Below, piece by piece: positions 163-26,311 of a stretch of DNA of 30,817 bases (position 1 is its first letter; every line of letters starts with the position of its first letter). The notes below the pieces were generated by a model. The model searched no databases. It saw only the letters and a list, made by a program, of their open reading frames with translations, and was not told the origin of the DNA. Position numbers and translations under genes: made by a program. Source of the stretch: a virus; the IMG/VR virus record IMGVR_UViG_3300028025_004499, positions 1 to 30,817 of that record; one strand, 5' to 3'.

Positions 163-185
163 ATGGCCCTACTATACAAAAATAA
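63..185 (+). other. Possible 40-codon reading frame that starts with a tag-like peptide (relic?)
   Basis: An ATG at 63 opens a 40-codon frame whose first residues are MGGLFYKYS. This closely resembles the GG-x-LLYKY peptide carried by many proteins downstream. The remainder is low-complexity, rich in Ile and Tyr, and encoded by AT-rich DNA. It overlaps the start of the next gene in another frame. It is most likely a tag left behind when its gene body was lost, or chance. I do not claim it is expressed. Confidence 0.2.
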
Positions 186-1044: not shown

Positions 1045-1050
1045 AATATT

Positions 1051-1947: not shown

Positions 1948-1958
1948 AATTAAATAAT

Positions 1959-2849: not shown

Positions 2850-2850
2850 T

Positions 2851-3456: not shown

Positions 3457-3710
3457 TGTGTACTATATATTGCATATCTTCAGTAACTACTGGATTTTTC
3501 TACCTTAATGTAGCAGAAAATTATGAAGCTTGTGTAAGTATGCACAATAAAATGCTTATTATGCAAAAACACCCCATAAAAAATTTACAAAAAATTTATA
3601 ACACACATGGGCCCGATGATATATATTATACCCCTATGGAAGATATAAATTGTAAAAATAAAGATCAAATAGTATTAGCTTACAGGGCTGCTATGACCGC
3701 TAGAAATTAA
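3456..3710 (+). CDS. Small protein resembling a degenerate GIY-YIG fold
   Basis: The 84-residue product has no tag. Its layout follows the start of GIY-YIG nuclease domains: TIY at residues 3-5 where GIY is expected, then YLN at 16-18 where YIG is expected. The stretch HPIKNLQKIYNTHGPDD (about residues 39-55) resembles the 'HPNxKLQxAxNKYGxDxF' segment of that family. The catalytic Arg after YIG and the terminal Glu are not where they should be. If the relationship is real, this is a non-cleaving, possibly DNA-binding descendant. The start overlaps the preceding stop by one base. The match is a visual one and needs a profile search. Confidence 0.65.
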   Translation: MCTIYCISSVTTGFFYLNVAENYEACVSMHNKMLIMQKHPIKNLQKIYNTHGPDDIYYTPMEDINCKNKDQIVLAYRAAMTARN

Positions 3711-3761
3711 CATTTACTTTTAAAAATTTATTATTAATTTTATACAATAAATATACAAAAT

Positions 3762-4169
3762 ATGGAAATGGAAACTTATTACGGGGTTGACTTGGTGTCT
3801 GCTGTACCTATGACAAAAAAAGAATACATTCTTAGTAAAGACTTAAAATTTAATGATAACGAAGACCAAGAAGGAATGGCAATTTCTACTGATCAAACTG
3901 GCCAAACAAAAATTTTTTGGACTCCCCTTACACAATTTAATAAAAATTGCGTAAAAGAAATTATTCCTAAATTACCAAAAAGTAAATTAATTGATTATCA
4001 GCAAAGAGTAGTAGATGAGTACTCTGAATTAATGGTAAAGATTGATAAGCTTAAAACTTTTTTAGATTCTAAACCAGAAAATGTTGAAGATCTAGAGCTT
4101 TTAAATTTGCAACTTACAGCTATGAAAACCTATGCTAGTATTTTAGCACATAGAATAAATAAATTTTAA
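3762..4169 (+). CDS. Small conserved phage protein (helical C-terminus)
   Basis: The 135-residue product has an N-terminal part with a 'FWTPLTQFNKN' strand/helix, similar to the 'SWSPKEVF' region often found in small phage proteins. Its C-terminal half, about residues 83-135, is amphipathic helical: 'ELMVKIDKLKTFLDS' then 'LLNLQLTAMKTYASILAHRI'. Helices of this type recur in small phage proteins of unknown role. It carries no tag and no catalytic motif. It follows a 51-base AT-rich gap and is the last gene before the terminator at 4191-4215. Family resemblance is from memory and the function is unknown. Confidence 0.75.
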   Translation: MEMETYYGVDLVSAVPMTKKEYILSKDLKFNDNEDQEGMAISTDQTGQTKIFWTPLTQFNKNCVKEIIPKLPKSKLIDYQQRVVDEYSELMVKIDKLKTFLDSKPENVEDLELLNLQLTAMKTYASILAHRINKF

Positions 4170-4190
4170 GATATATACCCGACAAGGTAG

Positions 4191-4215
4191 GCCCGCAGAG
4201 ATGTGGGCTTTTTTA
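4191..4215 (+). terminator. Rho-independent terminator
   Basis: Stem GCCCGCA (4191-4197) pairs with TGTGGGC (4202-4208), with one wobble pair and loop GAGA, and is followed by a T run. It ends the first tagged-gene unit, after the stop at 4169. The genes from 4279 on therefore probably have their own promoter in the AT-rich stretch 4216-4278. Confidence 0.85.
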
Positions 4216-4278
4216 TTTTTACTTTTTTCTTACAATATATATTGGTATATTATTTTATAAAATATAAAATCTATTGGT

Positions 4279-4437
4279 ATGTTACTATATGATAAAAAAT
4301 CATTAAAAAATAAATCTGTTAAAAAAGCAGCAGATATAAAAGAGCCTGTTTATACAGACACTTATTCTGATCGTTTGGCAAAATTAGCAGCTCACAAACC
4401 TGGACGTAAAGGTTTAGAAGATTACTTAAAAAAATAA
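4279..4437 (+). CDS. Short tagged protein, 52 residues
   Basis: A short gene that starts MLLYDKKSLKNK, a tag variant, and continues as a basic, Lys/Ala-rich peptide ending GRKGLEDYLKK. It is the first gene after the terminator and ends three bases before the next start codon. The tag, the tight spacing and the lack of any other frame in this interval support it as real. No domain is recognised. The C-terminal 'YSDRLAKLAAHKPGRKGLEDYL' region is probably helical. Confidence 0.6.
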   Translation: MLLYDKKSLKNKSVKKAADIKEPVYTDTYSDRLAKLAAHKPGRKGLEDYLKK

Positions 4438-4440
4438 ATT

Positions 4441-4959
4441 ATGCAAGTAAGTAGTAGAAGCTTTGAAAATTACAAAAAAGGCGGTGTTATAGAAGGTAGT
4501 ATAGTAGGAAAACCTGAGCTTACAGGAAACGCTGGTTTAAGATTAACATTTAAAACTGGTGGAATTTTATTGTATAAAAAATCTCCTGTAAATTATTTTG
4601 ACGATGGGGGAATGATGGATGGAAATCCACCAAAGAAAAAATATCCATCTAGAACACAAGTAGCCGCGGTTAATAATCTTAAAATTTCTAATAAACAGTT
4701 GAATTCAAATGATGCAAAATCAAATACAGATTTTAACTCTTATGCAAGATTTATTGATGAGTATGATGATGGCACGCCAAATGATACTTCATATACATAT
4801 ATTACACCAACAGAGAATGTATTTTTTTCTACCGCAATTAACCCTGAAACAAATCAAAAATTTGGGCAAATTCAATCAAATAATAAATTTTCAAGTTTGA
4901 GCCCAGAACAACGTAAGCATTATCAAGCTAAAATTATGCAACAATTAGGAAATAAATGA
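4441..4959 (+). CDS. Tagged protein of unknown function
   Basis: The 172-residue product has the tag inside rather than at the start: KTGGILLYKKSP at residues 38-49. A weaker KKGGVIEG lies near residue 12. The N-terminal 37 residues could be a small module placed before the tag. The rest is polar and low in hydrophobics, including a DDGGMMDG stretch and a region rich in Asn, Asp and Thr, so it may be partly disordered. No enzyme motif is visible. The stop overlaps the next start as ATGA (4956-4959), a typical translational coupling. Function unknown. Confidence 0.7.
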   Translation: MQVSSRSFENYKKGGVIEGSIVGKPELTGNAGLRLTFKTGGILLYKKSPVNYFDDGGMMDGNPPKKKYPSRTQVAAVNNLKISNKQLNSNDAKSNTDFNSYARFIDEYDDGTPNDTSYTYITPTENVFFSTAINPETNQKFGQIQSNNKFSSLSPEQRKHYQAKIMQQLGNK

Positions 4960-5408
4960 ATTCAAGAGTAGCTTTAAATAAATTACGTAAAGACTTAGGA
5001 GATTATTCCTATACTACTTATAATGTAGATCGTTCTCGTAAAGCTAAAAAAGGCGGAGTTTTATTATACAAAAAAGGCAGTGCACTTAAATCTAGAATAA
5101 AATGCCACAATCCTAAATGTAATCATAGTTGGGGTAGAGAAGAAGGCGGAGATGATATGTATATTTGTCATGAATGTGGTACTGATAATGCAGAATTTTA
5201 TAAAAAAGGAGGTATGTTATTATATAAAAAAGGTGGATCTATTCACATAGCTGAAAATAAAAAAGGGACTTTTACTGCGGCAGCAACTAAGCATGGTAAA
5301 AGTGTTCAAGCTTTTGCAAAACAAGTTTTAGCTAATAAAGAAAATTATAGTCCAGCTATGGTTAAAAAGGCTAATTTTGCCCGCAATGCTAGTAAGTGGA
5401 AACATTAA
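4956..5408 (+). CDS. Modular tagged protein: zinc ribbon plus 'FARNAxKW' module
   Basis: The 150-residue product is a string of small modules separated by tags. Residues 1-30 are basic. The first tag, KKGGVLLYKKGS, is at 31-42. A zinc ribbon follows with Cys50, Cys55, Cys71 and Cys74 (CxxxxC and CxxCG) and an internal HSW. The second tag, KKGGMLLYKKGGS, is at 83-95. The last module (about 96-150) has KGTFTAAA, SVQAFA, VLANKENYSP and ANFARNASKW, a motif I recall as a stand-alone small phage protein. The second tag contains an internal Met (residue 87), as if a gene start had been fused in frame. This is the clearest case of the tag marking domain borders. Confidence 0.85.
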   Translation: MNSRVALNKLRKDLGDYSYTTYNVDRSRKAKKGGVLLYKKGSALKSRIKCHNPKCNHSWGREEGGDDMYICHECGTDNAEFYKKGGMLLYKKGGSIHIAENKKGTFTAAATKHGKSVQAFAKQVLANKENYSPAMVKKANFARNASKWKH

Positions 5409-5422
5409 AAAATTAAAAAAAG

Positions 5423-6631
5423 ATGATACTATATAAAGATGGAGAAGTTCTTTCTACAACAAAATCTGAAAATGGTACAATTACCAATTTAGTAAAAACT
5501 AAAAGCGGCGAGCATAAACTACAGGTTAAAACTAAAGATGGTAAATATTACGAAAAAGATTTAGCTGACTGGGAAGCAGATAAATATAAATTAGGTAAGC
5601 AAAAAGATATTTCTTTAAACCCAAAAAAATGGGGCTTAAATGATTATTCAGATTATTCTTCCTATAATTCAGCTTTTAGAAACGCTAGGGAAAGTAAAGA
5701 AAAAGAATTTACTTATAAAGACGAGAGATATAATACAAACCTTATACCTAAAAAAGATTCTGATTTATATTGGGAAAGTAAAAAGTTTTTAAAAAATTAT
5801 TATGAAACTCAGCCGTACGCAGTTTCTTCGGCTATTAACGGCACAAGCCCATTTACAGCTAGAGAAGAATTTTTAAAGAAAAAATATGGTTATTCATTTT
5901 TAGCTGCTTATGACAAAAGAAGTAAGTTTAAAATTGATTCACCTGAGTGGAATAAATTATCTAAAGTTTTAAGCGCTATAGGAGAAGAAGAAGATTTAAT
6001 TTTAAAAGGAAATCACAAAGAATATAATGATTTTTATGATGGTTTAAAAAAGCAAGATAAACAAAAACAAGTAAAAGAAAGATTAAAATCACTTGACAAA
6101 CCTTCATACTTTTCTGTAACAAGCGCAAAACCATTAGACATGTTAGAAGAAGGTTACTGGGATGGTGGAAAAAATAAAACTTTTATGTACACTAAAGGAG
6201 AACCTTCTAAATTAAATACTACTTTTGTCCATGAACTGTCTCATAAAGGCGACGATATAATAGATGTAGTTTTGTCTACTCCTGATATAAATGTAAAAGC
6301 TTTAAATGAATCTCCCTTTGGTGATAATATAAGCCAAAGTGGTTTCAATTATCTTTCAGACCCTTCTGAAATAGAAGCTAGAAAATTATCTACTTTATTT
6401 TTCCTGAAAAAACATAAACTTCCTTGGGAAGCCGGCAAAATATCACCTCAAGTTTTAGACAAACTTTACGATTATCATTTTGATGATAAATTACCGTCTG
6501 ATATTGATCAACTTTTAGAATTATATGGAGCACAGCCAGAAGATTTATTAAATTATTTAAACGGTAATTACGATAAATATAAATATAAGCATAAATATAA
6601 AAAAGGCGGATTGCTATTAAAATACAGATAA
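5423..6631 (+). CDS. Tagged HExxH zinc metallopeptidase (C-terminal tag)
   Basis: The 402-residue product begins MILYKDGEVL and ends KKGGLLLKYR, so tag-like sequences bracket the protein. HELSH is at residues 270-274. A likely third zinc ligand, Glu316, lies in YLSDPSEIEAR, about 45 residues downstream; this context closely parallels the peptidase at 1051. The N-terminal 60 residues contain beta-rich repeats around VKTKSGEHK and VKTKDGKYY, and the middle is charged and helical. A C-terminal helical region precedes the tag. No signal peptide or membrane span is seen. Expected to be a zinc-dependent peptidase with unknown substrate. The next gene starts two bases after its stop codon. Confidence 0.85.
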   Translation: MILYKDGEVLSTTKSENGTITNLVKTKSGEHKLQVKTKDGKYYEKDLADWEADKYKLGKQKDISLNPKKWGLNDYSDYSSYNSAFRNARESKEKEFTYKDERYNTNLIPKKDSDLYWESKKFLKNYYETQPYAVSSAINGTSPFTAREEFLKKKYGYSFLAAYDKRSKFKIDSPEWNKLSKVLSAIGEEEDLILKGNHKEYNDFYDGLKKQDKQKQVKERLKSLDKPSYFSVTSAKPLDMLEEGYWDGGKNKTFMYTKGEPSKLNTTFVHELSHKGDDIIDVVLSTPDINVKALNESPFGDNISQSGFNYLSDPSEIEARKLSTLFFLKKHKLPWEAGKISPQVLDKLYDYHFDDKLPSDIDQLLELYGAQPEDLLNYLNGNYDKYKYKHKYKKGGLLLKYR

Positions 6632-6632
6632 T

Positions 6633-6827
6633 ATGAATATAGAGGATTTACATGAGATGGAAGATTCTTTTGAATCTTACGATGATAATAAACAAATACA
6701 GATTAAAAAATCTGTTGAAAGTGTAGAAGAAGAAGAAAAAATTTTTACTGGTACAACTCCTGCTAGACGTAGAATAGTAGAATCAGATAACAGTGTAGAT
6801 AATCGTTGGAATAAATTTAAATTTTAA
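6633..6827 (+). CDS. Small acidic protein
   Basis: The 64-residue product is highly acidic in its first two thirds (runs of Glu and Asp, including VEEEEK). It then has a short basic stretch, TPARRR, and ends NRWNKFKF. It has no tag and no recognised domain. It sits two bases after the peptidase gene and five before the transglycosylase gene, so it is probably co-translated with them. An adaptor or inhibitor role for a neighbouring enzyme is possible, but nothing in the sequence proves it. Confidence 0.6.
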   Translation: MNIEDLHEMEDSFESYDDNKQIQIKKSVESVEEEEKIFTGTTPARRRIVESDNSVDNRWNKFKF

Positions 6828-6831
6828 AAAT

Positions 6832-7452
6832 ATGATTTTACTTAAATATCAACCGCAACCATTATTTGATTTTGAATCAGACCCAGAACCAGTGCCAAAA
6901 AAACCAGCTGCAACAAAAGAAGTAAAAACTTCAAAAATTCCAACAGATATATTTTTAAGACAATTATATTCTGAATCAGGTTTAGGTGAAGGTGCTTTAT
7001 ATAAACAACAATTATTAAGTAGGTCAGCAAATTCTCCTTTAGCAGTAGGCCCAGCCCAAATACAAAAAGTAGCTTTAGACGAATATAATAAAAAATACAA
7101 TAAAAAATATAATTTAGAAGACAGATTAAAACCAGAAGTTGCCGCAGAAATTCAGTCAGGTTATATGAAAGATTTATATAATAAAGATTTTATAAATAAA
7201 CCTAATCAGCTAGAAAAAGTAAGAATTGCAAAAACATTATTAGCTTATAATAGAGGGCCAGGTGCAGCAAAAACTATTTTAACTGATTTAAAAAATAAAG
7301 GTTACGATATTTACAATTCACTGGATTGGGTTGATAAAATACCAAATGCTGAGGGTAAAAAATATGTTACTAATATAATTAAGGGTTTTAGCCCAGAAGA
7401 TGAAACAAAATATCAAAAATTAATAAAAAATACTACTTTTAAATACGATTAG
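6832..7452 (+). CDS. Tagged lytic transglycosylase / lysozyme-like protein
   Basis: The 206-residue product begins MILLKYQPQP, a tag variant, then a Pro/Glu/Lys linker up to about residue 38. The body has the goose-lysozyme/SLT layout. Catalytic Glu48 lies in LYSESGLGEG, followed by AVGPAQIQK (the 'GxxQ' segment), then LLAYNRGPGA and a C-terminal YVTNIIKGF. This predicts cleavage of the glycan backbone of peptidoglycan. No holin or signal peptide accompanies it, which argues for a virion-borne wall-opening enzyme rather than a secreted endolysin. That location is inferred; the fold assignment is strong. It is followed after one base by the next gene. Confidence 0.88.
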   Translation: MILLKYQPQPLFDFESDPEPVPKKPAATKEVKTSKIPTDIFLRQLYSESGLGEGALYKQQLLSRSANSPLAVGPAQIQKVALDEYNKKYNKKYNLEDRLKPEVAAEIQSGYMKDLYNKDFINKPNQLEKVRIAKTLLAYNRGPGAAKTILTDLKNKGYDIYNSLDWVDKIPNAEGKKYVTNIIKGFSPEDETKYQKLIKNTTFKYD

Positions 7453-7453
7453 T

Positions 7454-9304
7454 ATGATTTTACGTAAGTACCAAAAAGGAGAAAATAAATTTGAATTACC
7501 TGTAGATCGCACTAAAAGCGAAACTACAAAAGTAATGACTGGTCCTGCCCAAAATTTAAAAAATAAAGAACAATTATTTAAATCTTTAAAAGATCAAGCA
7601 TTATTGCAAGCAGACAAACAACTTAAAAAAGGCGCCATAAATATTAAAGAGCATAAGCAAATAAAAGAAGAAATAAAAAATTCAACTAATTCTCTAGACT
7701 TAGAAAAGAAATTTGAAAAGGTTCAAGAAAAATTGTTACGTGCTACAAAAACACCAGTATTAAAAAATGCTCCTTTAACTCAAAATAAAGAATTTAATAA
7801 AGAGTTTTTTGAAAAAGCTGAAGATAAAGACAGAAATTATATAAGCCAAGATTTATTACCAAATTTAGGCAGAGTTATTACATCTCTAGCAACTAAAGGT
7901 AATCTTAGTAATGTACCTAAAAATTATGAACTGTATAAAAGATATGGAATAAATATGCCTGCTTCAGGAGGTTATGGTGATTTAGTTATGACTGAAAATG
8001 GAGGAGATCAAGTAATAGAATCTTTTAACCCTTTTAGATCTGCTCAGGATTTAGAATATAATATACAAGATAAAGATTACGGCAAAGCTATTGTAAATGC
8101 TGTAGGTACTTTACCTCTATTTAAATTAACTAAACCTGCCGCTAAATTATTACTTAAAGCAGGAGAAACATTAAGAACCGCTCAACCTATATCAACATTA
8201 GGCTTAACTACAAGACTTGCAACAAATGCCAACGCTGTAAATCGCTTTGTAAACTTAACTGGTGCTGGTATTAAAGGCGCAGGTTACGGTATAAAATATG
8301 GCGCAGATAATGTTTTAGATTTAGGTGGTTTTGGAGGTAGTAATAAATTAATACCTTTAAAATTAAAAGTAAATAAAGGCAAAAAAGAAATTACAAATAT
8401 TAATGCTAGTCAATCTATTATAAAAGATTTAAAAGAATTAGAAAATTTACCAGAAGATCATCCTATATTTAACAGCTGGACTGGCACTAAAAAAGATTTT
8501 ATTGAGCACCAAAATAAAATTGTTGATATAAAAAGTAAAGATTATGTATTAGATAAATTAAACAACAAATTAAGAGAATATTCGCAAGATTTAGGCAATT
8601 ATCCTGCTTTAGAAAAAGATATAACCCAAGAAAAATTTGTTATTGAAGGCAGAAAAAACGCAGTTGATTTTATTGAAAGTGAGCATTTTTTAAAGAATAT
8701 AAAGGCTGCACATCCAGAATTAACTGATAAAGATATAATTGCAATACAAAAAAACACTAAAAGAAGAATGTTAAGCTCTCCATTAGATATAAAAATGAGA
8801 GACAAAAGTTCTCTTGCAAGCTGGAATAGTGGTCAATATAATTATGATAAAAACACATTAGATTTTAGATACGTAGACCCATATATGAATCAAGATCCTA
8901 GATTTTTAGAAGATATAGCAACTCACGAGTTTGGACATAATCAAACCAGCAACCAAAATGTTTATGGTGTAAATATAAAACCTCAAGGCTGGCATAATGC
9001 TTTGTCAAAAGATAAAATGGAACTAATTAAACCTGAAGCAGAATTATATTTAGGTAAATTAGAAGAGCAACGGCAACGAGCTTTAGGAGCTTATACTATT
9101 GCTAAAAAACATAATTTATTAGAAAATGGCGTATTTACAGAAAATACATTAAATAAATTAAATGAACATAAATATGCTCCAGATGTGTCGTCTATTCTTG
9201 ATGATTACACAAGGCCTTCTGCTTTAAATTATTTAAATAAATTTTATAATATAGCTATTCCAATTACCGCAACATCGTCATTATTATATAATAACAAAAA
9301 ATAA
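7454..9304 (+). CDS. Large tagged HExxH metallopeptidase
   Basis: The 616-residue product begins MILRKYQKGEN and ends SLLYNNKK, a tag-like tail. Residues 15-120 are Lys/Glu-rich and helical. About 130-300 is rich in Ala, Gly and Leu, with weakly hydrophobic stretches (around 'AIVNAVGTLPLFKL' and 'NLTGAGIKGAGYGI') that could touch membranes. The zinc site HEFGH is at 491-495. Downstream, PEAELYLGKLEEQ and a 'KKHNLLENGVFTENTLNKL' segment align in pattern with the same regions of the peptidases at 5423 and 1051, suggesting one family. No cleavable signal is present. It is the longest member of the tagged set and probably combines delivery, membrane contact and peptidase functions; the middle part is speculative. 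Confidence 0.82.
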   Translation: MILRKYQKGENKFELPVDRTKSETTKVMTGPAQNLKNKEQLFKSLKDQALLQADKQLKKGAINIKEHKQIKEEIKNSTNSLDLEKKFEKVQEKLLRATKTPVLKNAPLTQNKEFNKEFFEKAEDKDRNYISQDLLPNLGRVITSLATKGNLSNVPKNYELYKRYGINMPASGGYGDLVMTENGGDQVIESFNPFRSAQDLEYNIQDKDYGKAIVNAVGTLPLFKLTKPAAKLLLKAGETLRTAQPISTLGLTTRLATNANAVNRFVNLTGAGIKGAGYGIKYGADNVLDLGGFGGSNKLIPLKLKVNKGKKEITNINASQSIIKDLKELENLPEDHPIFNSWTGTKKDFIEHQNKIVDIKSKDYVLDKLNNKLREYSQDLGNYPALEKDITQEKFVIEGRKNAVDFIESEHFLKNIKAAHPELTDKDIIAIQKNTKRRMLSSPLDIKMRDKSSLASWNSGQYNYDKNTLDFRYVDPYMNQDPRFLEDIATHEFGHNQTSNQNVYGVNIKPQGWHNALSKDKMELIKPEAELYLGKLEEQRQRALGAYTIAKKHNLLENGVFTENTLNKLNEHKYAPDVSSILDDYTRPSALNYLNKFYNIAIPITATSSLLYNNKK

Positions 9305-9309
9305 TATTT

Positions 9310-9948
9310 ATGCTGCTTAAAAAATACCCTAATAAAGTTATTAAAACATTAGTAAAAGTTATTGACTTAAATTTTGAAATAGATCTTAAGGTAGGTAACA
9401 GCAAAATCACTAAAATAAAAGATAAAGCTACTATAGCTATGTCTACTAATAGTGCAGGAGTATATACTATAGGTAAAGATATAGAAAAATATTGTGGTAT
9501 ACCTGAAGAGGAAGTAAAAAGAGATGTTGCTGCTGGTAAAGATAGGCCTGAAGATGCTATTATATACGGCTTAACTAACATTATGAATGGAGGTAAAGAT
9601 ATTTACTTATGGGTCAATGGTACACGTTTACAAGGTATGAGTAAAAAAGTAGGTACTTGGCCAGCAATTATAGAAATATTATCACACGAAAGTACGCATT
9701 TAGCAAAATTAATTTTAACTAGAGCTATTGCAAAACAAAAAGGAATAGATGTTGATGGGCCTAAATGGATCACTTATGATTACGGAGCTGGAGAATATAA
9801 TTGGCCTACTAATGGAGATATAAATGACGGCAATCCACTTATACAAATTGATGATGAAACATTTGCTACTGTAGTAGGATACATCAATCAACAGATTATT
9901 ACACAATTTTTAGATATGGCTAAAGAGTTTTTGCCTGAGCTACAGTAG
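9310..9948 (+). CDS. Tagged small HExxH zinc peptidase
   Basis: The 212-residue product begins MLLKKYPNK, a diverged tag. The zinc motif HESTH lies at residues 126-130, and Glu183 in DDETFATVVGYI is the likely third ligand. The pattern 'HExxH ... DxExxAxxxGY' fits a family of small phage-encoded zinc peptidases; it differs from the 'PxExxAR' type at 1051 and 5423. The N-terminal 100 residues are beta-rich with no signal peptide. It is the last gene of the tagged cluster, followed by a gap with a candidate promoter. Substrate unknown. Confidence 0.82.
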   Translation: MLLKKYPNKVIKTLVKVIDLNFEIDLKVGNSKITKIKDKATIAMSTNSAGVYTIGKDIEKYCGIPEEEVKRDVAAGKDRPEDAIIYGLTNIMNGGKDIYLWVNGTRLQGMSKKVGTWPAIIEILSHESTHLAKLILTRAIAKQKGIDVDGPKWITYDYGAGEYNWPTNGDINDGNPLIQIDDETFATVVGYINQQIITQFLDMAKEFLPELQ

Positions 9949-10257: not shown

Positions 10258-10860
10258 ATGCTAAAATTTCAAGTATACAATAATAAAGTATGCATTGATC
10301 CTAGCATAATTCTACTAGAAGAATTTTCTAATATCCTTGCATATGCAAAAAAGAAAAAAGACGAAGACCTCGGAAATCGCATGCTATTATATGTTTTCTT
10401 TTGTTGTGACCTTACAGAAGATAATTTCATGCGAGATATTGACTACAGGCTTAAACCTGAGCAGGCTATGTCTAGAGCTTTTCTTAATAAGATAACAAAG
10501 TTTGACAAAGAACAATCTGAGCTTATAGATGCTGCAATTGATGCTTATAATTTTTTTAATGAAACCTCTGCTGAAAGAGCTGTTTTAGCTATAGATAAAA
10601 AAATTGATGAAGCTAGGACAGTATTAGAAAGCACAGAAATTGAAATTGTAAGAAATCAAAAAGATAACGGCGAAGTATCTTTTGCATCTAATGAAACTAT
10701 ACTTTCTAAATTAGCAACTAATATAGGTGCGTTAATGACGTTAAAATTAAACGTTATGAATGCTGCTAAAAAAATGGAAAATACTGGTCGTGTACGTGGT
10801 GGTAAAGGATCTTCATTATTAGAACGTGGCGGATTAATACAAAAAATAGACGATGAGTAG
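10258..10860 (+). CDS. Helical protein upstream of TerL; candidate small terminase
   Basis: The 200-residue product is almost entirely alpha-helical by composition, with a basic patch KKKKDEDLGNR near residue 32 and heptad-like segments at about 75-125 and 145-175. The C-terminus is RVRGGKGSSLLERGGLIQKIDDE-like, glycine- and charge-rich. Its stop overlaps the TerL start by eight bases, the usual place for a small terminase subunit. TerS proteins are poorly conserved, and no helix-turn-helix is obvious, so this is inferred from position and helicity only. It could instead be another head or packaging accessory. Confidence 0.55.
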   Translation: MLKFQVYNNKVCIDPSIILLEEFSNILAYAKKKKDEDLGNRMLLYVFFCCDLTEDNFMRDIDYRLKPEQAMSRAFLNKITKFDKEQSELIDAAIDAYNFFNETSAERAVLAIDKKIDEARTVLESTEIEIVRNQKDNGEVSFASNETILSKLATNIGALMTLKLNVMNAAKKMENTGRVRGGKGSSLLERGGLIQKIDDE

Positions 10861-13147
10861 TATTTCAAGTAAGCCAAAAAATAAAATGAAAAAAGTTAAC
10901 ACTGCTAAAATACCAACTTTAGCAAGTGCTAAAAATGAATATAATCCTTTTTCATTAAACTTTTTAAAAACTGACGAACAAAACAGAATATGGAATGGTG
11001 AATTTGAAGTTACAGATGCGCCTAAAAAATTGCATGGAGTTGTTACGGGTGAAGAAGAAATTAAACTTACAGATTATCTTGTATATAGGCCTTTACCAAA
11101 AGAACTTATAGCTTGGCGAGAAATACCAAATTATCATCCTGATAGTTTAGACATGGAAGAATGGTATAATCCTCTTATTAATTTTTGCTATAAAGGAGTT
11201 TGGGTAGATGGTGAATATTATAATCCTTTCTTTGTTTATTGGCTAAATATATTTGTATTTCCAGTACCTATATATGACGATGAAGGTAAACCTACAGAAG
11301 ATTTTACTACTTCACACCCTCAATATTGTAATATAGATAGATATTTTTTTGATTATTCTTGGAAAGCTTACTTAAATAATAAGGATGTTTCTATAATGGG
11401 TGGTCGTGGTGTAGGTAAATCTTATATGATTAATAATGTAATGGATAGAGAATTCAGGTTATTTCCTGGTAGCCATACATTAATTTCATCTACAAATGAA
11501 GTAACTACTGATGAGGCTTGGCGTAAAATAGAAGAAGGTTTAGGCGCTATTGAAAGATTACATAGAGCTTTAAAATTAAAACTTATTGATGATTCTGCTG
11601 AAGTAAAATATTCAGGAGAAACAGTAGATTTACCAGATGGAACTAAAGAAGAGCGTGGACATTTATCTAAATTTGAAAAAATTGTATATGGTAAAAATGC
11701 AGGTAAAACAAGGGGTAAACGTCCTAGTAAACAATTAGTAGAAGAGTTTGCAGCATTTCCTCCTTCACACCAAAAAGGTTCACTAGGCGCTTGTAAAAGA
11801 GAAAGTCGTGGTTCTTGGTATGTAATGGGTAGTATTAAAAAATGTCAAGTGTACTATTCAGGTACAGGTGGTACTGTAGAAAATGACGAAGCAGAAGGTA
11901 TATTTTGTAACCCAGATGCTCACGAAATTTTACCTACTTACGATTTTGGTATAGCTTCAGGTTTCTTTTGCCCTACACATATTAAACGTGCAGGTACTTG
12001 GGAAGTAACAGGCTGCCCAGACGTATCTTTAGCTACAGGCGAAGTAATGCAAGAGCGTGAAGCTGCTAAAGCTGATCCTACTGTTTACTTAGGTTTATTG
12101 CAAGAATACCCTATGACTATAAAAGAAGTATTTATACGTAAAGGTAGTAATATATTTGATCAAGATAAAATAGCTACACAACGTATAAACCTTCAAATGA
12201 ATCCTAATATACCTAAACCAGAAAAAGGTTTTTTAAAGTGGGCACGAGCTGAAAACGGTAAAATTATAGGTGTAGAATGGGACCCTAGTCCTTTAGGAGA
12301 TATAGAAATATTAGAGCATCCTCATTGGCTAACAGAACATGCTTTGGAAAATGAAAGACAACCGTTACCTAATTTATACGTAGGCGGAGCCGATAGTATT
12401 GACCAAGGTACAGGAGATTCTTCACACGCAGTAAATAACAAAAAAGGTTCTGAGTTAGCAATACTTATAAAGAAACGTATATTAGAAAAAGGATATTTTA
12501 GAACTACTTCTAATTTATACGTAGCTAAATACAAGAAAAGATCTGTAGATGTTAGAACAGACTGGGATAACGCTTTAAAATTAGCTTATTATTATAATGC
12601 TGAAGTAAATATAGAATACACTAAAATTGGTATAGTTGGTCATTTCCGTGACAACGGCTTTTATCATTTACTTAAAAAAAGACCTACTATAAATTTACAA
12701 AATGCAGACCCTAATAAACAAACACAATTAATAGGTACAACTGCAGCTGGTCCTATAATAGATCATCAAGATCAACGTATAAAGTCTTACATAGATGATT
12801 TTTATGATACTATATATTTTGCAGATTTATTAGAGCATTTACAGGATTATAACAGAGAAGACAGAACTAAATTCGACTTAGTTATTGCTATGGGTTTATG
12901 TGAATTATCTGATGAAGATCTCATGGGTAAAAGTGCAAAACCTAAAGAAGCAGCAACAGAACAATTTCAATTATTTGGTTACTATACTGATCCTGCAACT
13001 GGACATAAAAAATATGGTGTTATTCCGTCAAAATCATCTGCTCAACAAGAATTAGACAAATCTATAGCTAAATCATTTTTAGAACATGGAGGAGTACGTT
13101 GGATAGATATGAGTGATCCAAAAAATCCTCAATATATATATGATTAA
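10853..13147 (+). CDS. terL: Terminase large subunit (packaging ATPase and nuclease)
   Basis: The 764-residue protein carries the two TerL domains. Walker A is GGRGVGKS at residues 183-190. The Walker B-like strand ends LVEEF, with Glu297 and Glu298. The C-terminal RNase H-fold nuclease begins with Asp514 in GGADSIDQG, with Asp517 close by. Late acidic residues, in 'YIDDFYDT' and 'RTKFDLVIAM', complete the pattern. It powers genome translocation through the portal and cuts the concatemer. The N-terminal 130 residues are an extension, with aromatic segments typical of TerL proteins from crAss-like phages. It overlaps the upstream helical gene, and the portal follows after one gene. Confidence 0.95.
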   Translation: MSSISSKPKNKMKKVNTAKIPTLASAKNEYNPFSLNFLKTDEQNRIWNGEFEVTDAPKKLHGVVTGEEEIKLTDYLVYRPLPKELIAWREIPNYHPDSLDMEEWYNPLINFCYKGVWVDGEYYNPFFVYWLNIFVFPVPIYDDEGKPTEDFTTSHPQYCNIDRYFFDYSWKAYLNNKDVSIMGGRGVGKSYMINNVMDREFRLFPGSHTLISSTNEVTTDEAWRKIEEGLGAIERLHRALKLKLIDDSAEVKYSGETVDLPDGTKEERGHLSKFEKIVYGKNAGKTRGKRPSKQLVEEFAAFPPSHQKGSLGACKRESRGSWYVMGSIKKCQVYYSGTGGTVENDEAEGIFCNPDAHEILPTYDFGIASGFFCPTHIKRAGTWEVTGCPDVSLATGEVMQEREAAKADPTVYLGLLQEYPMTIKEVFIRKGSNIFDQDKIATQRINLQMNPNIPKPEKGFLKWARAENGKIIGVEWDPSPLGDIEILEHPHWLTEHALENERQPLPNLYVGGADSIDQGTGDSSHAVNNKKGSELAILIKKRILEKGYFRTTSNLYVAKYKKRSVDVRTDWDNALKLAYYYNAEVNIEYTKIGIVGHFRDNGFYHLLKKRPTINLQNADPNKQTQLIGTTAAGPIIDHQDQRIKSYIDDFYDTIYFADLLEHLQDYNREDRTKFDLVIAMGLCELSDEDLMGKSAKPKEAATEQFQLFGYYTDPATGHKKYGVIPSKSSAQQELDKSIAKSFLEHGGVRWIDMSDPKNPQYIYD

Positions 13148-13206: not shown

Positions 13207-13806
13207 ATGAAAATAAGTAAAGGAAATATTTCCCCTAAAAATTATTATGTTTTAGCGGAAGTTACTGAATTAGAAGCGGTAAAAAATAATATTTATCAAG
13301 GAAACCAACAACTAGCTACCAAAACTAATATTGAATATTACTATGGTAAAGCTTTAAAGTTAGGCCCTACAGCGCTAGACAAAGAGCAATGTCCTGAGCT
13401 AAAAGAAAACGATAATATTATATTTTCACAATTTGCAGGTTTTGCAACAGCTACACAAGATAGTTTTTGTAAAGCAATACGAGGCTCAGATATCGTAGCA
13501 ATAGTAACTTCTAATTTTGATAACATGACAGAGAAAACAATAAAACCAACAGGAGAAAGAATTTTAGTAAAAATAATTGGGGAAAATTTAATTCAAGGTG
13601 GAATTTATGATGACACTGCAAATGACCCTAGAGAAACAGTTACACAAAAAGGAGAAGTAATTAGTTGCGCAAAAAATGCAGACAAATATCCTAAAGGAAC
13701 TATTGTAGCGTTTGAACCTTATTGTGGTAATTTAATTGTTAATGAAAACAATTTAAAATTAAAGACTGTGCATAGTTTTGATATTTTATATACTATAGAA
13801 AAATAA
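13207..13806 (+). CDS. Tandem GroES/Cpn10-like co-chaperonin
   Basis: The 199-residue protein is two Cpn10-like barrels in a row. The first (about residues 10-103) shows YGKALKLGP, then ELKENDNIIFSQFAG, then RGSDIVAIV; these match the GKVxxVGPG, VxxGDxVxFxxYxG and RDSDILAIV stations of GroES. The second (about 113-199) has PTGERILVKIIG, a mobile-loop-like QGGIYDD with GGI at 131-133, then KGEVISCA, KGTIVAFEPYCG and DILYTIE. The usual length is about 95 residues, so this is a duplication or fusion. The likely role is to cap host GroEL and help fold a capsid protein, as T4 gp31 does. It sits directly before the portal, with a one-base overlap. Confidence 0.85.
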   Translation: MKISKGNISPKNYYVLAEVTELEAVKNNIYQGNQQLATKTNIEYYYGKALKLGPTALDKEQCPELKENDNIIFSQFAGFATATQDSFCKAIRGSDIVAIVTSNFDNMTEKTIKPTGERILVKIIGENLIQGGIYDDTANDPRETVTQKGEVISCAKNADKYPKGTIVAFEPYCGNLIVNENNLKLKTVHSFDILYTIEK

Positions 13807-16175
13807 TGAGTAGTTTAGGTCGGTATTATAATGTTGAAGATACTGCGGTATCGGAAGAAGAAAAATCAGGATTTAATTATTTAAGTCATACAATTGATTT
13901 TTATATTGCGGCCATGGTTCGTGAAAAAGACCATATTAAAAGCGCTCGTAATTTATATGACGGCGTTAGAAACAAAGATGAATTTCGTTATTTAGAAGAG
14001 ACTTTTGGAATAGAAACTCCTTTAGCTGTAAAAATGACACCGCTTATTAAAACAAGAATTGATGTTTTAGTAGGTATGTTTTTAGATGAAGAGTATCATT
14101 ATCATGTTTCTATGAGTGATGCTAACACAGTGACTAAAATCGAGGAAGAGAAAAGGAAAGAATTTTCTATGCGTATGCAAGAAAAGCTAACTAAATTTAC
14201 TGCTGACACGGTTAATCTTGTTAAACAAAATAAACCAGTAGACCCAGAAAATCTTTTAGAAGCAGACTTTGTAAAAACTTTATCAGAATCTTTAAATAAG
14301 TCTTTTATTTCTCAATTTGAAATAACTATACAATCTTTAGTTAAATTTTTTGAGCAAGATACTACTATAAATATTCGCCAAAAAGCTAAACAATTTTTAA
14401 TTGATTATTTAGTAACTGGTGAAGCTTACTATCGTACTTATTTAGACTATGAAGGAGGTGATCCTAAATTAGAAATTTGTAAACCTGAAAATGTATTTTT
14501 CAGTAAAAATACTGCCTATCAGTTTTTATCTGAAGGTAATGATCCTCATGTAATGGCAGTAGTTCACAGAACTTATATGAAACGTAACGAAATATTAAAT
14601 CGTTGGGGGCATGTAATGACTGATGAACAAAAAAATGCTTTATACGGTATGGCTCGTAGTACTGCTGTAAATCGTATACGTGACCCTAGACAACTAGACC
14701 ACATGTACAACTTACAAGATGCAGTTTACGATCAGCACACTAATAGTACTTGGGATACTTTACCAGTTTACCATGTGGAATGGTTAGCTAATAATGAAGT
14801 AAAAATTGATAAAGAAGAACAAGTTAAATTAGAAGTTGTAGACCATATTTCTAGATCTAAATATTGGAAAGATAGTTTAGTTCCAGATTCTTACTTAGGA
14901 GTAGGTGCTGGTAATGGAGAAGTTAATGACACTGTTTATCGTTTAGACAGATACGAAGGTATTAGAATAGGTTGGGATATTTACTTAAACTTAGGTAAAA
15001 GTAAACATATGCCTAGAAGTATAGCTGCTCCTTATAAAACTACATTATCATATAATGGTTGTGTATACAATGATAGGAATTCTAAGCCTTATTCTTTAGC
15101 TTTATCTTTAAAAAATATACAAGATTCTTACGATATTATAACTTTTTTCAGAGATAATCTTATAGCTAACTCTGGTGTAGATGGTTCTCGTATTAACTTA
15201 GCTGCTATACCAAAAGTATTAGGCCAGGACTTTATGGAACGTATGCTTAAATTTATAGCATTCCGTAAACAAGGGTTAGAGTTGTACGATCCTACAGAAG
15301 AAGGCGCAAATTTATTTCAACATTATGGAGAGTTTAGAGGTTCTTTAGATGGTAACGTTATACAATCTTTAAATTTAGTATTAGAATCTTTGCAAGCTCA
15401 AGCAGATATGGTTACTGGCGTAAATCGTTATATGTATCAAGCAGCTGAACAAAGAGATGCTGTAACTAATGTTAAAACCGGTATAAAACAAACATCTTTA
15501 ATAATTAAAGATATGTTTGAATCTATATTTGACTCTAGAAAAAATATGCTTATTGATTTAGTTAATTTAGCAAAAATTTCTTATAGAGACGGTAAACGCG
15601 GATCTTATATATTAGGACACAAAACAGTATTATTTAACGCTCAACCTGAACATTTTAGATTTAGTGATTATAATATTTATGTGGTAAATAGCAGCAAAGA
15701 AACTTTAAAATTAGAAAAATTAAATGCTATTGCTCCTCAACTTGTAGGTAAAGGTTCTATAGAAGATGAAACATTAGTAAAAATCTTAATGACTGAATCT
15801 ACTACAGAAGTAGTACAATTAGTAGAAGACAGCTTACTTAAAAAGAAAGAAGAAAACAACGCTATCAAACAACTTCAACAACAATTGCAACAGCTTACAG
15901 AACAAGCAAAACAATTGGAACAGCAATTACAAAAAACAACGCAAGAAAAAGAAGCTTTAGAAAAAGTAGACAGAGAATACAAAAACAAAGAGCTAGAAAT
16001 GCGTTATGCTAGAGAAGATAAACGTATTGAAATTGCGCAAGAAGAACTTGATTTGACAGAAAGAATTGCAGAAGAAGAAGCTGCAAAAGATAATAAAATA
16101 GTGCAACTAGAAAGAGAGCAATTATATGCAGAGCAATCTCAAGGCCAAGCTAGAGAAATAAGAAATGATATATGA
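13806..16175 (+). CDS. Portal protein
   Basis: The 789-residue protein is the head-vertex ring through which DNA enters and leaves. Support is its place after TerL, its length, and the typical portal sequence course. An N-terminal helical domain leads into TPLIKTRIDVLVG, a clip/stem region follows around 'YLVTGEAYYRTYLDYEGGD', and the long-helix segment contains 'LNLVLESLQAQADMVTGVNRYMYQ'. From about residue 678 the chain is a Gln/Glu/Lys-rich coiled coil (around KQLQQQLQQLTEQ) reaching almost to the end, longer than in many portals and likely the barrel or an internal tail. It overlaps the next small gene as ATGA. Confidence 0.9.
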   Translation: MSSLGRYYNVEDTAVSEEEKSGFNYLSHTIDFYIAAMVREKDHIKSARNLYDGVRNKDEFRYLEETFGIETPLAVKMTPLIKTRIDVLVGMFLDEEYHYHVSMSDANTVTKIEEEKRKEFSMRMQEKLTKFTADTVNLVKQNKPVDPENLLEADFVKTLSESLNKSFISQFEITIQSLVKFFEQDTTINIRQKAKQFLIDYLVTGEAYYRTYLDYEGGDPKLEICKPENVFFSKNTAYQFLSEGNDPHVMAVVHRTYMKRNEILNRWGHVMTDEQKNALYGMARSTAVNRIRDPRQLDHMYNLQDAVYDQHTNSTWDTLPVYHVEWLANNEVKIDKEEQVKLEVVDHISRSKYWKDSLVPDSYLGVGAGNGEVNDTVYRLDRYEGIRIGWDIYLNLGKSKHMPRSIAAPYKTTLSYNGCVYNDRNSKPYSLALSLKNIQDSYDIITFFRDNLIANSGVDGSRINLAAIPKVLGQDFMERMLKFIAFRKQGLELYDPTEEGANLFQHYGEFRGSLDGNVIQSLNLVLESLQAQADMVTGVNRYMYQAAEQRDAVTNVKTGIKQTSLIIKDMFESIFDSRKNMLIDLVNLAKISYRDGKRGSYILGHKTVLFNAQPEHFRFSDYNIYVVNSSKETLKLEKLNAIAPQLVGKGSIEDETLVKILMTESTTEVVQLVEDSLLKKKEENNAIKQLQQQLQQLTEQAKQLEQQLQKTTQEKEALEKVDREYKNKELEMRYAREDKRIEIAQEELDLTERIAEEEAAKDNKIVQLEREQLYAEQSQGQAREIRNDI

Positions 16176-19626: not shown

Positions 19627-21039
19627 ATGAAAATTGTAGACAGAGCAACGGTCGTTCAGCATTTAGGGGACACTAAGACTGTGCAAAATTTTGGTACTTT
19701 GTTGGGGACAAAACCTCACAAACTAGGTACTGTAGTGACAATGTATAAAAACTTGGCATTGTCAACTTTAACAGATGCGTTGAAAAACGTATATTATAAC
19801 CCTAAAAAAGATAGCAACTCTTTTGTTCCTATTAACTCTATGGTTATTGAGTGGACTATTGATGTTAACTTCATCAAAAAAGTAAAAATCGTAGGTAATA
19901 TCACAGGTAATGGTTCTAACAAAAATGTAGAATCTATCATTTTGGCTGAGCGTTACTATGATAAAAACGATACTTTTACTTTGGAAAACAAACAACAATT
20001 ATTTGTTGTAGCTCCACCAAAAAAATTAGCTCAAAATCGTTGGGAATACAAAGTAGTTTTAGTAGGTAACGACTTCACTAAAGCTATCAATACTACTTAC
20101 GCTGCAGCTGGTAAAGATACACGTTACCGTTCTAACTATCACCCAGAATTGTCTGAAAGAGGTTACTCTAAATTCATTTCTAACACTGAAACTCACCGTA
20201 ACTACTTGTCACGTCAAAGAGCTTCTGTGTCTTGGTCATCTGACTTTGCATTGCATGAAGAAGTTTACTTACAAATGGGTAAAAACGAAAAAGATGCAAA
20301 CGCATATTTCAAAATGAACAAGAAAGAAAAAGAATGTTTAGATACTTTCTTAATTTCTCGTGAGCAAAACTGTCTTTTCTCTGAAACTAACTACGATGTT
20401 AATGGTCGTTGTTTAGACCAAGATGATCACGGACGTGACATTCCTATGGGAGATGGTGTTGTTGCACAAATCGAAAGATACTGTGACAAATTTGCTTACT
20501 CTTTGTTAACTTTAGATGTATTTGATGATGTACTTTCTGCAATGAGAGAGAAATCAGAAACTCCTACAGGTAACATCTACGCAGTAGTTTGTAACGAGCG
20601 TTTCTACGACCAAGTAGGTAAATTGATGCGTAATGACTTGAAATACTTATCTCCAGCAAATGCTGCTTATTTTTATTCTAAAGCTGCAAATGGTAAAGTA
20701 AGTTTAGGTGCTGAATTTGATAGCTATACTTTCCAAGGTAATACTATTACTTTCATGCCAGATAGGGTTCTTTCTCAAGAATATCCTGAAGGTGGATACG
20801 GTATCTTCTTAGATACAGGTGCTGACCTTTCTTCTGGTCGTCCTAACGTATCTATGTTTACTTTACAAGGTTCAGAAATGATTTCTGGTACTTTAGTAGG
20901 TATGGGTGGAGTATCTGGTACTGCTTCAGGTGAAATTGCTACTTCAGTAGCTGGTTCTGAATACCACTTGTTAGGTTACTCAGGAGTTGTAGTTTTCAAC
21001 CCTTACAGATCATTTATTATCCAAGAATCTCTTGTTTAA
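19627..21039 (+). CDS. Major capsid protein
   Basis: The 470-residue product is the shell subunit. Evidence: position after the scaffold-like gene, size typical of crAss-like capsid proteins, a single-gene unit bounded by a structured leader and a terminator, and markedly different codon use from its neighbours. It uses many C-ending codons (AAC, TAC, TTC, ATC), as for a protein made in very large amounts. The start MKIVDRATVVQHLGDTKTVQ leads through a long middle domain ('FDDVLSAMREKS', 'CNERFYDQVG', 'FQGNTITFMPD') to a C-terminus 'GYSGVVVFNPYRSFI'. No obvious cleavage motif is visible at the N-terminus. An HK97 fold is assumed from the family, not seen directly. Confidence 0.88.
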   Translation: MKIVDRATVVQHLGDTKTVQNFGTLLGTKPHKLGTVVTMYKNLALSTLTDALKNVYYNPKKDSNSFVPINSMVIEWTIDVNFIKKVKIVGNITGNGSNKNVESIILAERYYDKNDTFTLENKQQLFVVAPPKKLAQNRWEYKVVLVGNDFTKAINTTYAAAGKDTRYRSNYHPELSERGYSKFISNTETHRNYLSRQRASVSWSSDFALHEEVYLQMGKNEKDANAYFKMNKKEKECLDTFLISREQNCLFSETNYDVNGRCLDQDDHGRDIPMGDGVVAQIERYCDKFAYSLLTLDVFDDVLSAMREKSETPTGNIYAVVCNERFYDQVGKLMRNDLKYLSPANAAYFYSKAANGKVSLGAEFDSYTFQGNTITFMPDRVLSQEYPEGGYGIFLDTGADLSSGRPNVSMFTLQGSEMISGTLVGMGGVSGTASGEIATSVAGSEYHLLGYSGVVVFNPYRSFIIQESLV

Positions 21040-24049: not shown

Positions 24050-24748
24050 ATGACAGCAAATGAATTAGCTTCTGCAATTAAAAACCGTATATATGATGGT
24101 TTATCAGGTATTATATCTGATCAATCTATCAGCACAGACCAATTGTTTGATGAAATAGATTTAGTTAGAGCAGATTTTGTAAATAAATATGCAATGGGCT
24201 CTAAATTAAATACAAAATATTTATTGCAAAGTTTAGATAATTTAGAAATTAAATGTACAAGTTTAGCTTATACAGACGCTTGCGATGCGTTTAGATTTTC
24301 TAATGATGCTGTTCCAGCTTTAGAAGTACCAGCTTTATTAGCTACTCCTGATGATTCTGCCATAGAATATTTAGGACTTACTAACAAACAAGAAAAATTT
24401 GCAGTGTATTATTCTACTTCTGATATTATTAATCATAAAGTAAGAATTAGAACTGCTAAAAAACCTTTTGCTTGGGTAGACACTACTTTAAATACAAACG
24501 GTATGAATACTATATATTTCTTTAATATGGGTAGTCATAATCCTTTAAAATATGTTTCTTTAAGAGCTATTTTTAATCATCCTTCTGCTGTAATGTTATA
24601 CGATACAGGTTATGAAGATAGAGAATACGCTGCACCTGCGCATATGCAAATGGCTATACTTGACACAGTAACAGAAAAATATATACGTTACTACCGTCAA
24701 ATGCATACTGTACCACAACCTAATACTCAAACTGATAATATCCAATAA
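24050..24748 (+). CDS. Putative neck/ring-type structural protein
   Basis: The 232-residue product starts MTANELASAIKNRIYDGLSG, a helical start like that of other connector proteins here, followed by QLFDEIDLVRADFVNKYAMG. The middle and end are beta-rich, with 'KFAVYYSTSDIINHKVRIR' and 'HNPLKYVSLRAIFNHPSAVML'. It sits among tail-neck genes and is followed after two bases by the ferritin gene. It is likely a ring or adaptor below the portal. Its family is not recognised with confidence. Confidence 0.65.
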   Translation: MTANELASAIKNRIYDGLSGIISDQSISTDQLFDEIDLVRADFVNKYAMGSKLNTKYLLQSLDNLEIKCTSLAYTDACDAFRFSNDAVPALEVPALLATPDDSAIEYLGLTNKQEKFAVYYSTSDIINHKVRIRTAKKPFAWVDTTLNTNGMNTIYFFNMGSHNPLKYVSLRAIFNHPSAVMLYDTGYEDREYAAPAHMQMAILDTVTEKYIRYYRQMHTVPQPNTQTDNIQ

Positions 24749-24750
24749 TA

Positions 24751-25296
24751 ATGGCTTTAGAAAAAATAGTAAATAACAGTGAAAATAATGCTATAAAAAA
24801 TAAATTAATACATGAAGAGTGTATTGAGTTATTAAACTTTCGTATAACAGAAGAAGATAAATCTGCTAGATTATATCACAACATGTATATGTTTTTAGAA
24901 AATAAAGGCTATACAGGTGCTGGAGCATTATGGCATAAATACGGACACGAAGAAGAAGTACACTCTGATTGGGCTAGAAATTATTTATTAGATCTTGGTA
25001 TACAGCCTGAGTTAAGAACATTACCAGCTATTATGCCAAAAGAATACGCAAGTTTTCCAGAAGTAATACGCTTATCTTATGACCATGAAGTAGAAATTAC
25101 TAATCAATGTAAAGAGCTTGCTAGTGGTGCAATGAAACATGGAGACCATATGTTGTATCAATTAGCTTTAAAATTTTTAGCTGAACAAATAGAAGAAGTT
25201 GGTAAAATGCAAACTTGGTTAGATAAATTACAAGCTTTTGGCGAGGGCCCAGAAGCATTGAGATTTTTAGATAATGAAATGGGTAGCTTAGCATGA
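24751..25296 (+). CDS. Ferritin (iron-storage type, complete di-iron site)
   Basis: The 181-residue product aligns by eye along its length with bacterial ferritin such as E. coli FtnA. Ligands are all present: Glu35 and Tyr42 on helix A, Glu68 and His71 in HEEEVHSDW, Glu113 in YDHEVEITN, and Gln146, Glu148 and Glu149 in AEQIEEVGK. The C-terminus FLDNEMGSLA matches the closing 'FIDKELS' of ferritins. It is expected to oxidise Fe(II) and store iron inside a protein cage. Its place inside the structural operon, between two neck-type genes, is unusual. It overlaps the next gene as ATGA. There is no signal peptide or virion tag. Confidence 0.92.
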   Translation: MALEKIVNNSENNAIKNKLIHEECIELLNFRITEEDKSARLYHNMYMFLENKGYTGAGALWHKYGHEEEVHSDWARNYLLDLGIQPELRTLPAIMPKEYASFPEVIRLSYDHEVEITNQCKELASGAMKHGDHMLYQLALKFLAEQIEEVGKMQTWLDKLQAFGEGPEALRFLDNEMGSLA

Positions 25297-25547
25297 TTTT
25301 AATATACAAAAAAGGAGGGTCTTTAAAATCTAATATGTCTTGCGGTGAGGTAAAATCTTCCCCTAACAAGCATAAAAAGATTATGAAGCTATACTGTATA
25401 GGAGGCAAGAAAAAGCTAGTGCACGCAGGTGATGATCGTTATGTAAATAATGTAGATTCTAAACGTAAGGCTTTTAAAGCTAGACATAAATGCAGCACAG
25501 CAAAACCAGGCACAGCTAGGCATTTAGCTTGTACAGAATTATGGTAA
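25293..25547 (+). CDS. Tagged small basic protein
   Basis: The 84-residue product starts MILIYKKGGSLKSN, the same peptide as the tags of the left cluster. It is followed by MSCGEVK, where Met15 looks like the original family start. The body has a basic 'RKAFKARHKCSTAKPG' segment and Trp at the very end; small basic proteins with 'MSCG ... KRKSFKARH ... W' are known from other phages, in my recollection without the tag. It has four Cys that might bind metal. It is coupled to the ferritin gene (ATGA overlap). Because the tag is simply added in front, this gene is good evidence for a portable peptide. Confidence 0.8.
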   Translation: MILIYKKGGSLKSNMSCGEVKSSPNKHKKIMKLYCIGGKKKLVHAGDDRYVNNVDSKRKAFKARHKCSTAKPGTARHLACTELW

Positions 25548-25564
25548 AATAAAATAAATATATT

Positions 25565-26311
25565 ATGGCTCAAGAACAAACAACAACACCTTTTTATGAT
25601 TTTATGTATCCTAAATTTCTTTTGAAAGATCTTTATGATATAGATATACATGAAGATGATTATTTAGAAAGAGCTTATAATGTTTACAGAGCTATAGGTA
25701 ATATTGCTACTGCTATACAAGAATACCATTTTACTATTGATAATAGTTTAAAAATTGAATTACCGTGCAATTGTGAATTTATAGAATCAGTTTCTACTGA
25801 TGAAAACTTATTAATGCGACAAGAAGACCTTGTAGTTTACTCTACAAATGCTTATGTATCTCCTAATGCATTTTTAGCAGATATTATTTCTAACGAATCT
25901 TTACGTAGGATTTACGTGCCTCAAGCAAGTACATTGCATCCATCTGGTATATTTTTACCATATACTTTAGAAAAAAGAACTTTGCATTTTGGTGAAGAAC
26001 AAGCAGGAACAAAAGCTCACATTATATACCGAGGTATTTTAGTAGATGAACAAAATAACCCTGTATTACATAGAAAAGAAGCTGAAGCTATAGCAGCACA
26101 ATTAGCATTTTTACATACTCAAAAACAAGTATTTATGCGTGACCCTGCAGCTTCAAATATATTAGGCTACATTAAACCAGAAGCAGCTAGGCTTATGGCA
26201 GCAGCTAAAATACCAGAGTACATTACTCAAAATCAATGGAATAGAATACTTAGTGCTAAAACTAGACACGACAGAAAAGTTTACAACGCTAGTTATAAAG
26301 CTTTACAATAA
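25565..26311 (+). CDS. Putative neck/ring structural protein
   Basis: The 248-residue product has a structured N-terminal part (FYDFMYPKFLLKDLYDIDIHEDDY), a beta-rich middle (LKIELPCNCEFIESVST, TLHFGEEQAGTKAHIIYRG) and a strongly helical end (KEAEAIAAQLAFLHTQ and YITQNQWNRILSAKTRHDRK). This layout, strands then a helical bundle, fits a portal-adjacent ring in crAss-like virions. It ends just before the start of the next gene. The role is inferred from position. Confidence 0.65.
   Translation: MAQEQTTTPFYDFMYPKFLLKDLYDIDIHEDDYLERAYNVYRAIGNIATAIQEYHFTIDNSLKIELPCNCEFIESVSTDENLLMRQEDLVVYSTNAYVSPNAFLADIISNESLRRIYVPQASTLHPSGIFLPYTLEKRTLHFGEEQAGTKAHIIYRGILVDEQNNPVLHRKEAEAIAAQLAFLHTQKQVFMRDPAASNILGYIKPEAARLMAAAKIPEYITQNQWNRILSAKTRHDRKVYNASYKALQ

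Follow-up and report, generated by a model that had tools for sequence, protein, structure and literature searches.

The virus record analysed here (the window, which is the entire record of 30,817 bases) encodes a ferritin of the FtnA type between two tail-ring genes of a crAss-like phage. The gene belongs to a clade that is old and phage-only among the cellular ferritins sampled, and in a second crAss-like lineage the ferritin is exchanged for a Dps-like protein with which it has an N-terminal peptide in common, a swap and a common peptide that are new here. Until now, ferritin and Dps genes in phages have for the most part been taken for stray acquisitions from the host. The old phage-only clade, together with the exchange behind a shared peptide, points to one selected function that is served by two cages.

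The ferritin gene and its neighbors

The features of the window that bear on the ferritin are the following:
10853..13147, + strand: terminase large subunit (match to phrog_6681)
13806..16175, + strand: portal protein (phrog_6547), which puts the ferritin within the virion gene module
19627..21039, + strand: major capsid protein (Crass_capsid, PF23898; E 2.8e-18)
24050..24748, + strand: tail ring protein 2 family (CrAss_Ring_2, PF25702), ending 2 bp 5' of the ferritin
24751..25296, + strand: phage ferritin (FtnA type), ATG start, 181 aa, recognized by profile, alignment, and model
24751..24804, + strand: N-terminal extension of the ferritin (MALEKIVNN..., residues 1-18), a candidate docking peptide that is not present in E. 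coli FtnA
25293..25547, + strand: basic protein of 84 aa, with the tag in its start MILIYKKGGS; its start codon and the ferritin stop overlap by 4 bp (ATGA)
25565..26311, + strand: tail ring protein 1 family (CrAss_Ring_1, PF24228), on the opposite side of the ferritin slot

The original prediction, made from the sequence of the window, described a ferritin with a full set of di-iron residues and a typical ferritin end, encoded between neck-type genes of a crAss-like phage and coupled to a tagged basic protein, and this description holds throughout. Membership in the crAss-like phages follows from the capsid (PF23898), portal (phrog_6547), terminase (phrog_6681), and ring (PF25702 family) genes. 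The neck-type neighbors are the ring protein 2 and ring protein 1 families; PF25702 is matched by 17 of the 21 members of the family of 24050-24748, and PF24228 by 7 of 20 family members, with no match for the window's own copy at 25565-26311. The coupling is the ATGA overlap with the 84-aa gene.

The ferritin itself matches the Pfam Ferritin profile (PF00210) over residues 25-161, scoring 69.4 bits (cut-off 24.5; E 3.9e-19), and its top sequence match in the PDB is E. coli FtnA (9bye; E 1.1e-20), which aligns over its whole length. In this alignment, E35, Y42, E68, H71, E113, Q146, and E149 correspond to FtnA E17, Y24, E50, H53, E94, Q127, and E130, and the third iron site is completed by E67, E145, and E148. 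Over 40 viral ferritins, nine of these ten catalytic positions are invariant and E67 is found in 39, with D in the remaining one. The AlphaFold2 model (pLDDT 90, with low confidence at residues 1-13) places helices at residues 22-51, 55-81, 102-129, 133-163, and 167-180, the last being the C-terminal fifth helix that forms the typical end. The ferritins of V. cholerae and E. coli are the top structural matches (Z ~25, rmsd ~1 A over 162 residues, helix E included; for V. cholerae 3qz3, Z 25 and rmsd 0.9 A). Profile, ferroxidase ligands, and a four-helix bundle with a fifth helix all agree with the FtnA type. Bacterioferritins have a His as second-site ligand where FtnA has E130; all 40 viral sequences have Glu here (E149 in the window), so the protein is not a bacterioferritin, and the intrasubunit FtnA center and the fifth helix set it apart from Dps.

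Purifying selection acts on the ferritin gene, whose dN/dS (0.06-0.13) matches the low values of the capsid and ring genes. A chance open reading frame is excluded, and a degenerate gene or pseudogene was rejected on the basis of the dN/dS values and the intact catalytic residues. The protein very probably has a genuine ferroxidase function.

The tag carried by the 84-aa protein recurs in the window, where it is found on eleven otherwise different proteins encoded within 163-9948 and at 25293-25547. It takes two forms, an N-terminal M.LLYKYQKG (nine occurrences versus 0.31 in shuffled sequences) and GG.LLYKK in an internal or C-terminal position (six versus 0.09), and the tagged proteins include one SLT transglycosylase (PF01464) and five HExxH proteins. 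The tag is possibly a signal for virion cargo. The 84-aa protein has matches in 8 loci and is missing from several ferritin-positive relatives. In one locus, an apparently broken remnant of it (L003:10541-10840) is followed by an inserted ORF for a glucosaminidase-like protein of 358 aa (start MILKKY).

Distribution and history of the viral ferritins

Ferritins had been expected to be rare in such operons. This is correct for known phages, since none of 50,697 annotated phage records contains a member of the viral ferritin family, but not for uncultured phages, where up to 105 stretches encode ferritin relatives (a figure reached in one of the scans of 2.9 million viral contigs). The annotated collection yields weak matches of 25-29% identity, and those placed in the tree fall with cellular ferritins. 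The 40 distinct viral ferritins form a single clade (support 100/100), which a very long branch separates from the sampled cellular ferritins, a set consisting of Bacillota, proteobacterial, Bacteroides-type, and archaeal ferritins, and the closest cellular ferritin has ~33% identity. A collection of genomes from 85,000 species gave one match; because that scan used phage-specific patterns, it did not sample all cellular ferritins in the collection. The match lies on a 5.5-kb contig (L057) in a Tissierellales bin, where the viral-type ferritin stands beside glycosyltransferase-like ORFs, and the contig looks phage-derived.

Ferritins are common among bacteria, which would fit a recently captured host gene carried as passing cargo. 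However, the single viral clade with full support, its distance from the sampled cellular ferritins with a best identity of about 33%, the spread of the family over three lineages, and the purifying selection on the gene make recent capture highly improbable, and it was rejected. The case considered beforehand as fatal to a phage role, namely absence of the gene from related phages combined with a recent host origin, is thus not what the tree and the relatives display.

Relatives with and without ferritin were collected using the window's major capsid protein as the query, and the ferritin was found in the same slot in related phages, as the original prediction had proposed to check. In the window's lineage (lineage 1; capsid protein ~470 aa), the ring 2 and ring 1 genes flank the ferritin in eight distinct loci, some of which have extra small genes in the gap, and in most other loci with both ring genes these abut at 2-14 bp. 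The lineage 1 tree (capsid, ring, and one neighboring protein) requires three state changes, and one gain and two losses suffice to explain the history of the ferritin in this lineage.

Other genes also occupy the slot or lie next to ring 2. A non-ferritin helical protein lies between ring 2 and ring 1 in two loci (L209:8736-9290 and L210:8751-9230); its starts, MSVDKVL and MSYEEVL, resemble the ferritin start MALEKVL and its GY...W spacing looks alike, but a profile comparison with the ferritins was not significant and a scan found no further relatives of it. At L020:8445-9236, directly 5' of ring protein 2, there is an inserted ORF that by eye looks like a GIY-YIG homing endonuclease. Three relatives of the window that lack the ferritin encode a Dps-like protein directly 5' of ring protein 2 (L078:16121-16609, L079:16398-16913, and L081:11246-11734); this protein ends in a GGG-ILYKK...CGGGK-type tail that resembles the window's tag (the GG-I/L-LYK kind).

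A third lineage (L012/L229, L232, and L234) has ferritin and Dps-like genes together in the head gene region, flanked by portal-side genes and by scaffold/capsid genes. A few records have the ferritin near lysis genes or elsewhere. These sites indicate that the ferritin is not bound to the ring genes. At L229:5701-5964, a GroES-like protein of 87 aa (by eye) is encoded directly after the ferritin and 5' of the scaffold gene.

Exchange with a Dps-like protein and a common N-terminal peptide

In lineage 2, a second and abundant crAss-like lineage (capsid protein ~540 aa), the ferritin lies 3' of a ring 3/4 family protein of 232-237 aa in at least 53 of 79 loci from the last scan. Six members of this preceding family match ring 3/4; homology of the protein to either of the lineage 1 ring proteins (ring 2 and ring 1) was rejected, as there was no signal. 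When loci were collected with the ring 3/4 protein rather than the ferritin as the query, the slot 3' of it contained a Dps-like gene in 64 of 80 lineage 2 loci, ferritin in 7, and nothing in 9, a ratio that is indicative only, since the loci are the closest ones to a single query and some of the phages are nearly identical. The slot is likewise empty at the homologous ring 3/4 protein of Cellulophaga phi17:2, csAssE-Sib, and Leptolyngbya Lbo-JY46, which means that particle assembly in general does not require the slot gene.

The Dps-like slot protein (~150-172 aa) agrees with Dps in profile, di-metal ligands, and fold. It matches the Dps-type family phrog_858 (E 1.8e-16 to 5.8e-21), and DUF5856 (PF19174) is above its cut-off in all five proteins tested, with PF00210 weak. 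Four residues in the pattern H..H..D..E (H70, H82, D97, and E101) are invariant in 35 sequences and align with Dps H51, H63, D78, and E82 (E. coli numbering), in an alignment to PDB Dps chains that rests on weak E-values (8e-4 to 1). Dps and related miniferritins make up nearly all of the top structural matches of the model (Z up to 15.6, with an rmsd of 2.2 over 126 residues), at a pLDDT of 75 and with Z values not far above those common for helical bundles. When profiles of the Dps-like family and of the viral ferritins were compared directly, there was no significant match.

The two lineage 2 proteins begin alike. Ferritin starts such as MEQKPRMLKRPEV and Dps-like starts such as MEKPRMLKRNPE have ME.KPRMLKR in common, and the strict motif, within the first 16 residues, is found in 59 of 1,555 distinct ORFs, all of them slot proteins (57 recognized by script and two that are Dps-like slot proteins by position and sequence). 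Looser forms (..KRP) occur in most of the remaining lineage 2 ferritins. In the Dps-like family, LKR is present in 64 of 64 slot proteins (100% conservation); conservation averages 43% over the 33 residues that follow and 79% in the folded part, so that its sequence reads as a conserved peptide on a loose linker. The lineage 2 genes are near-identical in DNA over the first ~30 bases, which could partly reflect recent recombination.

Ferritin and Dps-like genes are adjacent in 11 records, and the peptide differs among lineages. The adjacent pair in L260 starts MQKIVRPTVFNTK and MQKIPRPSVLSAK (common peptide MQKI.RP), and that in L234 starts MALDINKINF and MALDINKSLV (common peptide MALDINK). 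Mean similarity of the N-terminal peptides is ~22 within lineages and 11-12 between lineages. The pairing of ferritin and Dps-like peptides from the same genome was reached in 8 of 720 permutations of genomes that are not independent of one another, and the match is strong in just two of the six two-gene genomes tested. The N-terminus of ferritin cages is at the outer surface, where such a peptide would be free to dock.

Possible roles and known systems

From the family, its ligands, the selection on the gene, the clade, the slot, the Dps-like swap, and the shared peptide, we infer cage assembly, catalysis, late expression, a docking partner, and a benefit to the phage. The FtnA-type cage would oxidize Fe(II) and store Fe(III); it would be made late, alongside the tail-ring proteins, in a line of phages that has long kept the gene. 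Sequestering iron and consuming oxidants would protect phage DNA and assembling particles, and related phages would obtain the same chemistry from a Dps-like miniferritin encoded at the matching slot, or from both proteins. The lineage-specific N-terminal peptide, outside the cage, would dock to a phage-encoded assembly or virion partner. The shared peptide and the ferritin/Dps-like swap favor such a combination of iron and peroxide chemistry with docking, and a late-made, active ferroxidase cage that is docked by its N-terminal tail and detoxifies iron and peroxide is the best reading, with about an even chance of being correct; the docking of the cage to a phage partner, taken by itself, has a similar chance. 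The probabilities attached to this and the following readings do not sum to one, since the readings overlap.

The same chemistry could be provided by a soluble ferritin that acts unattached in the infected cell, as antioxidant or as iron store, with its place in the late operon reflecting expression timing only and the peptide not binding the virion. Invariant catalytic ligands, isolates that do without the ferritin, its different positions among lineages, and its loss while neighboring genes stay are all consistent with such a soluble auxiliary, which is nevertheless rather unlikely because it leaves unexplained why, among all ORFs of those loci, two cage proteins alone have one lineage-specific peptide. 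Cages that coat phage DNA through a DNA-binding tail, like that of E. coli Dps, would account for the basic tails of lineage 2 (mean charge ~+2 over the first 14 residues). Lineage 1 tails, including the window's, average -0.5, however, and lineage 3 ferritins +1, and the peptide is conserved in sequence rather than merely basic (LKR 100%, following linker 43%), which makes DNA binding improbable.

A virion component or cargo, with the cage in the capsid or tail barrel or on the neck and traveling with the particle, is a tentative alternative that the original prediction had named in part, beside protection from oxidative damage, and that includes a Ferrojan-horse role in which particle iron aids entry. 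It would fit the position among ring genes, the docking-type peptide common to both cages, and the Dps-like proteins of L078, L079, and L081, whose tag is of the same kind as that on putative lytic enzymes; moreover, crassvirus particles store cargo in the capsid and tail (PMC10172136), and for a Vi01-like phage, mass spectrometry is reported to have revealed a ferritin-like protein encoded in a tail operon (PMC10892097). On the other hand, a 24-mer with a width of ~12 nm would be too large to go through the tail in folded form, and the Vi01-like phages showed no dependence on TonB or FeoB (PMC10892097). The presence of the ferritin in the virion is regarded as possible but somewhat doubtful. 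With similar reserve, it is suggested that interchangeable FtnA and Dps cages may be loaded onto or into crAss-like virions via lineage-specific N-terminal docking peptides, as a counterpart of cargo loading in encapsulins. If cages are loaded in this way, the particle would have its own iron and peroxide chemistry; docking of the peptide to the virion would mean that particles bear their own iron-oxidizing machinery. The question of iron in phage particles would then be open to a direct test, and there would be a parallel with encapsulin nanocompartments, in which the shell has the HK97 fold of phage capsids.

Returning to the docked, late-made cage, its nearest cellular counterpart is FtnA (E. 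coli 1eum/9bye, V. cholerae 3qz3), with which the phage ferritins share the five-helix fold and all ferroxidase and third-site ligands. They differ from FtnA in sequence (33% identity), in having 14-48 extra N-terminal residues, in forming a phage-only clade, and in being sited among virion genes. The Dps, DUF5856 (PF19174), and phrog_858 proteins resemble them in the matching lineage 2 slot, the N-terminal peptide, the superfamily, and the chemistry. Among open-licence papers, there was none on DUF5856 and none with the phrase 'phage-encoded ferritin', and papers that pair ferritin with crAss-like phages are, in the portions of their text available, patient studies or concern another phage group. 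Earlier phage cases include the ferritin-superfamily gene gp217 of Sajous1, a Vi01-like phage (PMC10892097), where the ferritin-like tail-operon protein seen by mass spectrometry came with no evidence for iron-based entry, as well as Dps and Mn-catalase in Gratiaviridae and Dps in Lactobacillus phages (PMC8008677). Compared by description, these are likewise ferritin-type genes of phages, one of them beside a tail gene, with no reported tie to crAss-like ring genes, a ferritin/Dps swap, or a shared peptide. In manner of working, the closest likeness is to the cargo ferritins of encapsulins, which combine a ferritin-like protein, a short targeting peptide, and an HK97-fold shell (PMC6668986 and PMC11202242); in the phages, by contrast, the setting is a full phage rather than a nanocompartment, and the peptide is N-terminal with a putative docking role.
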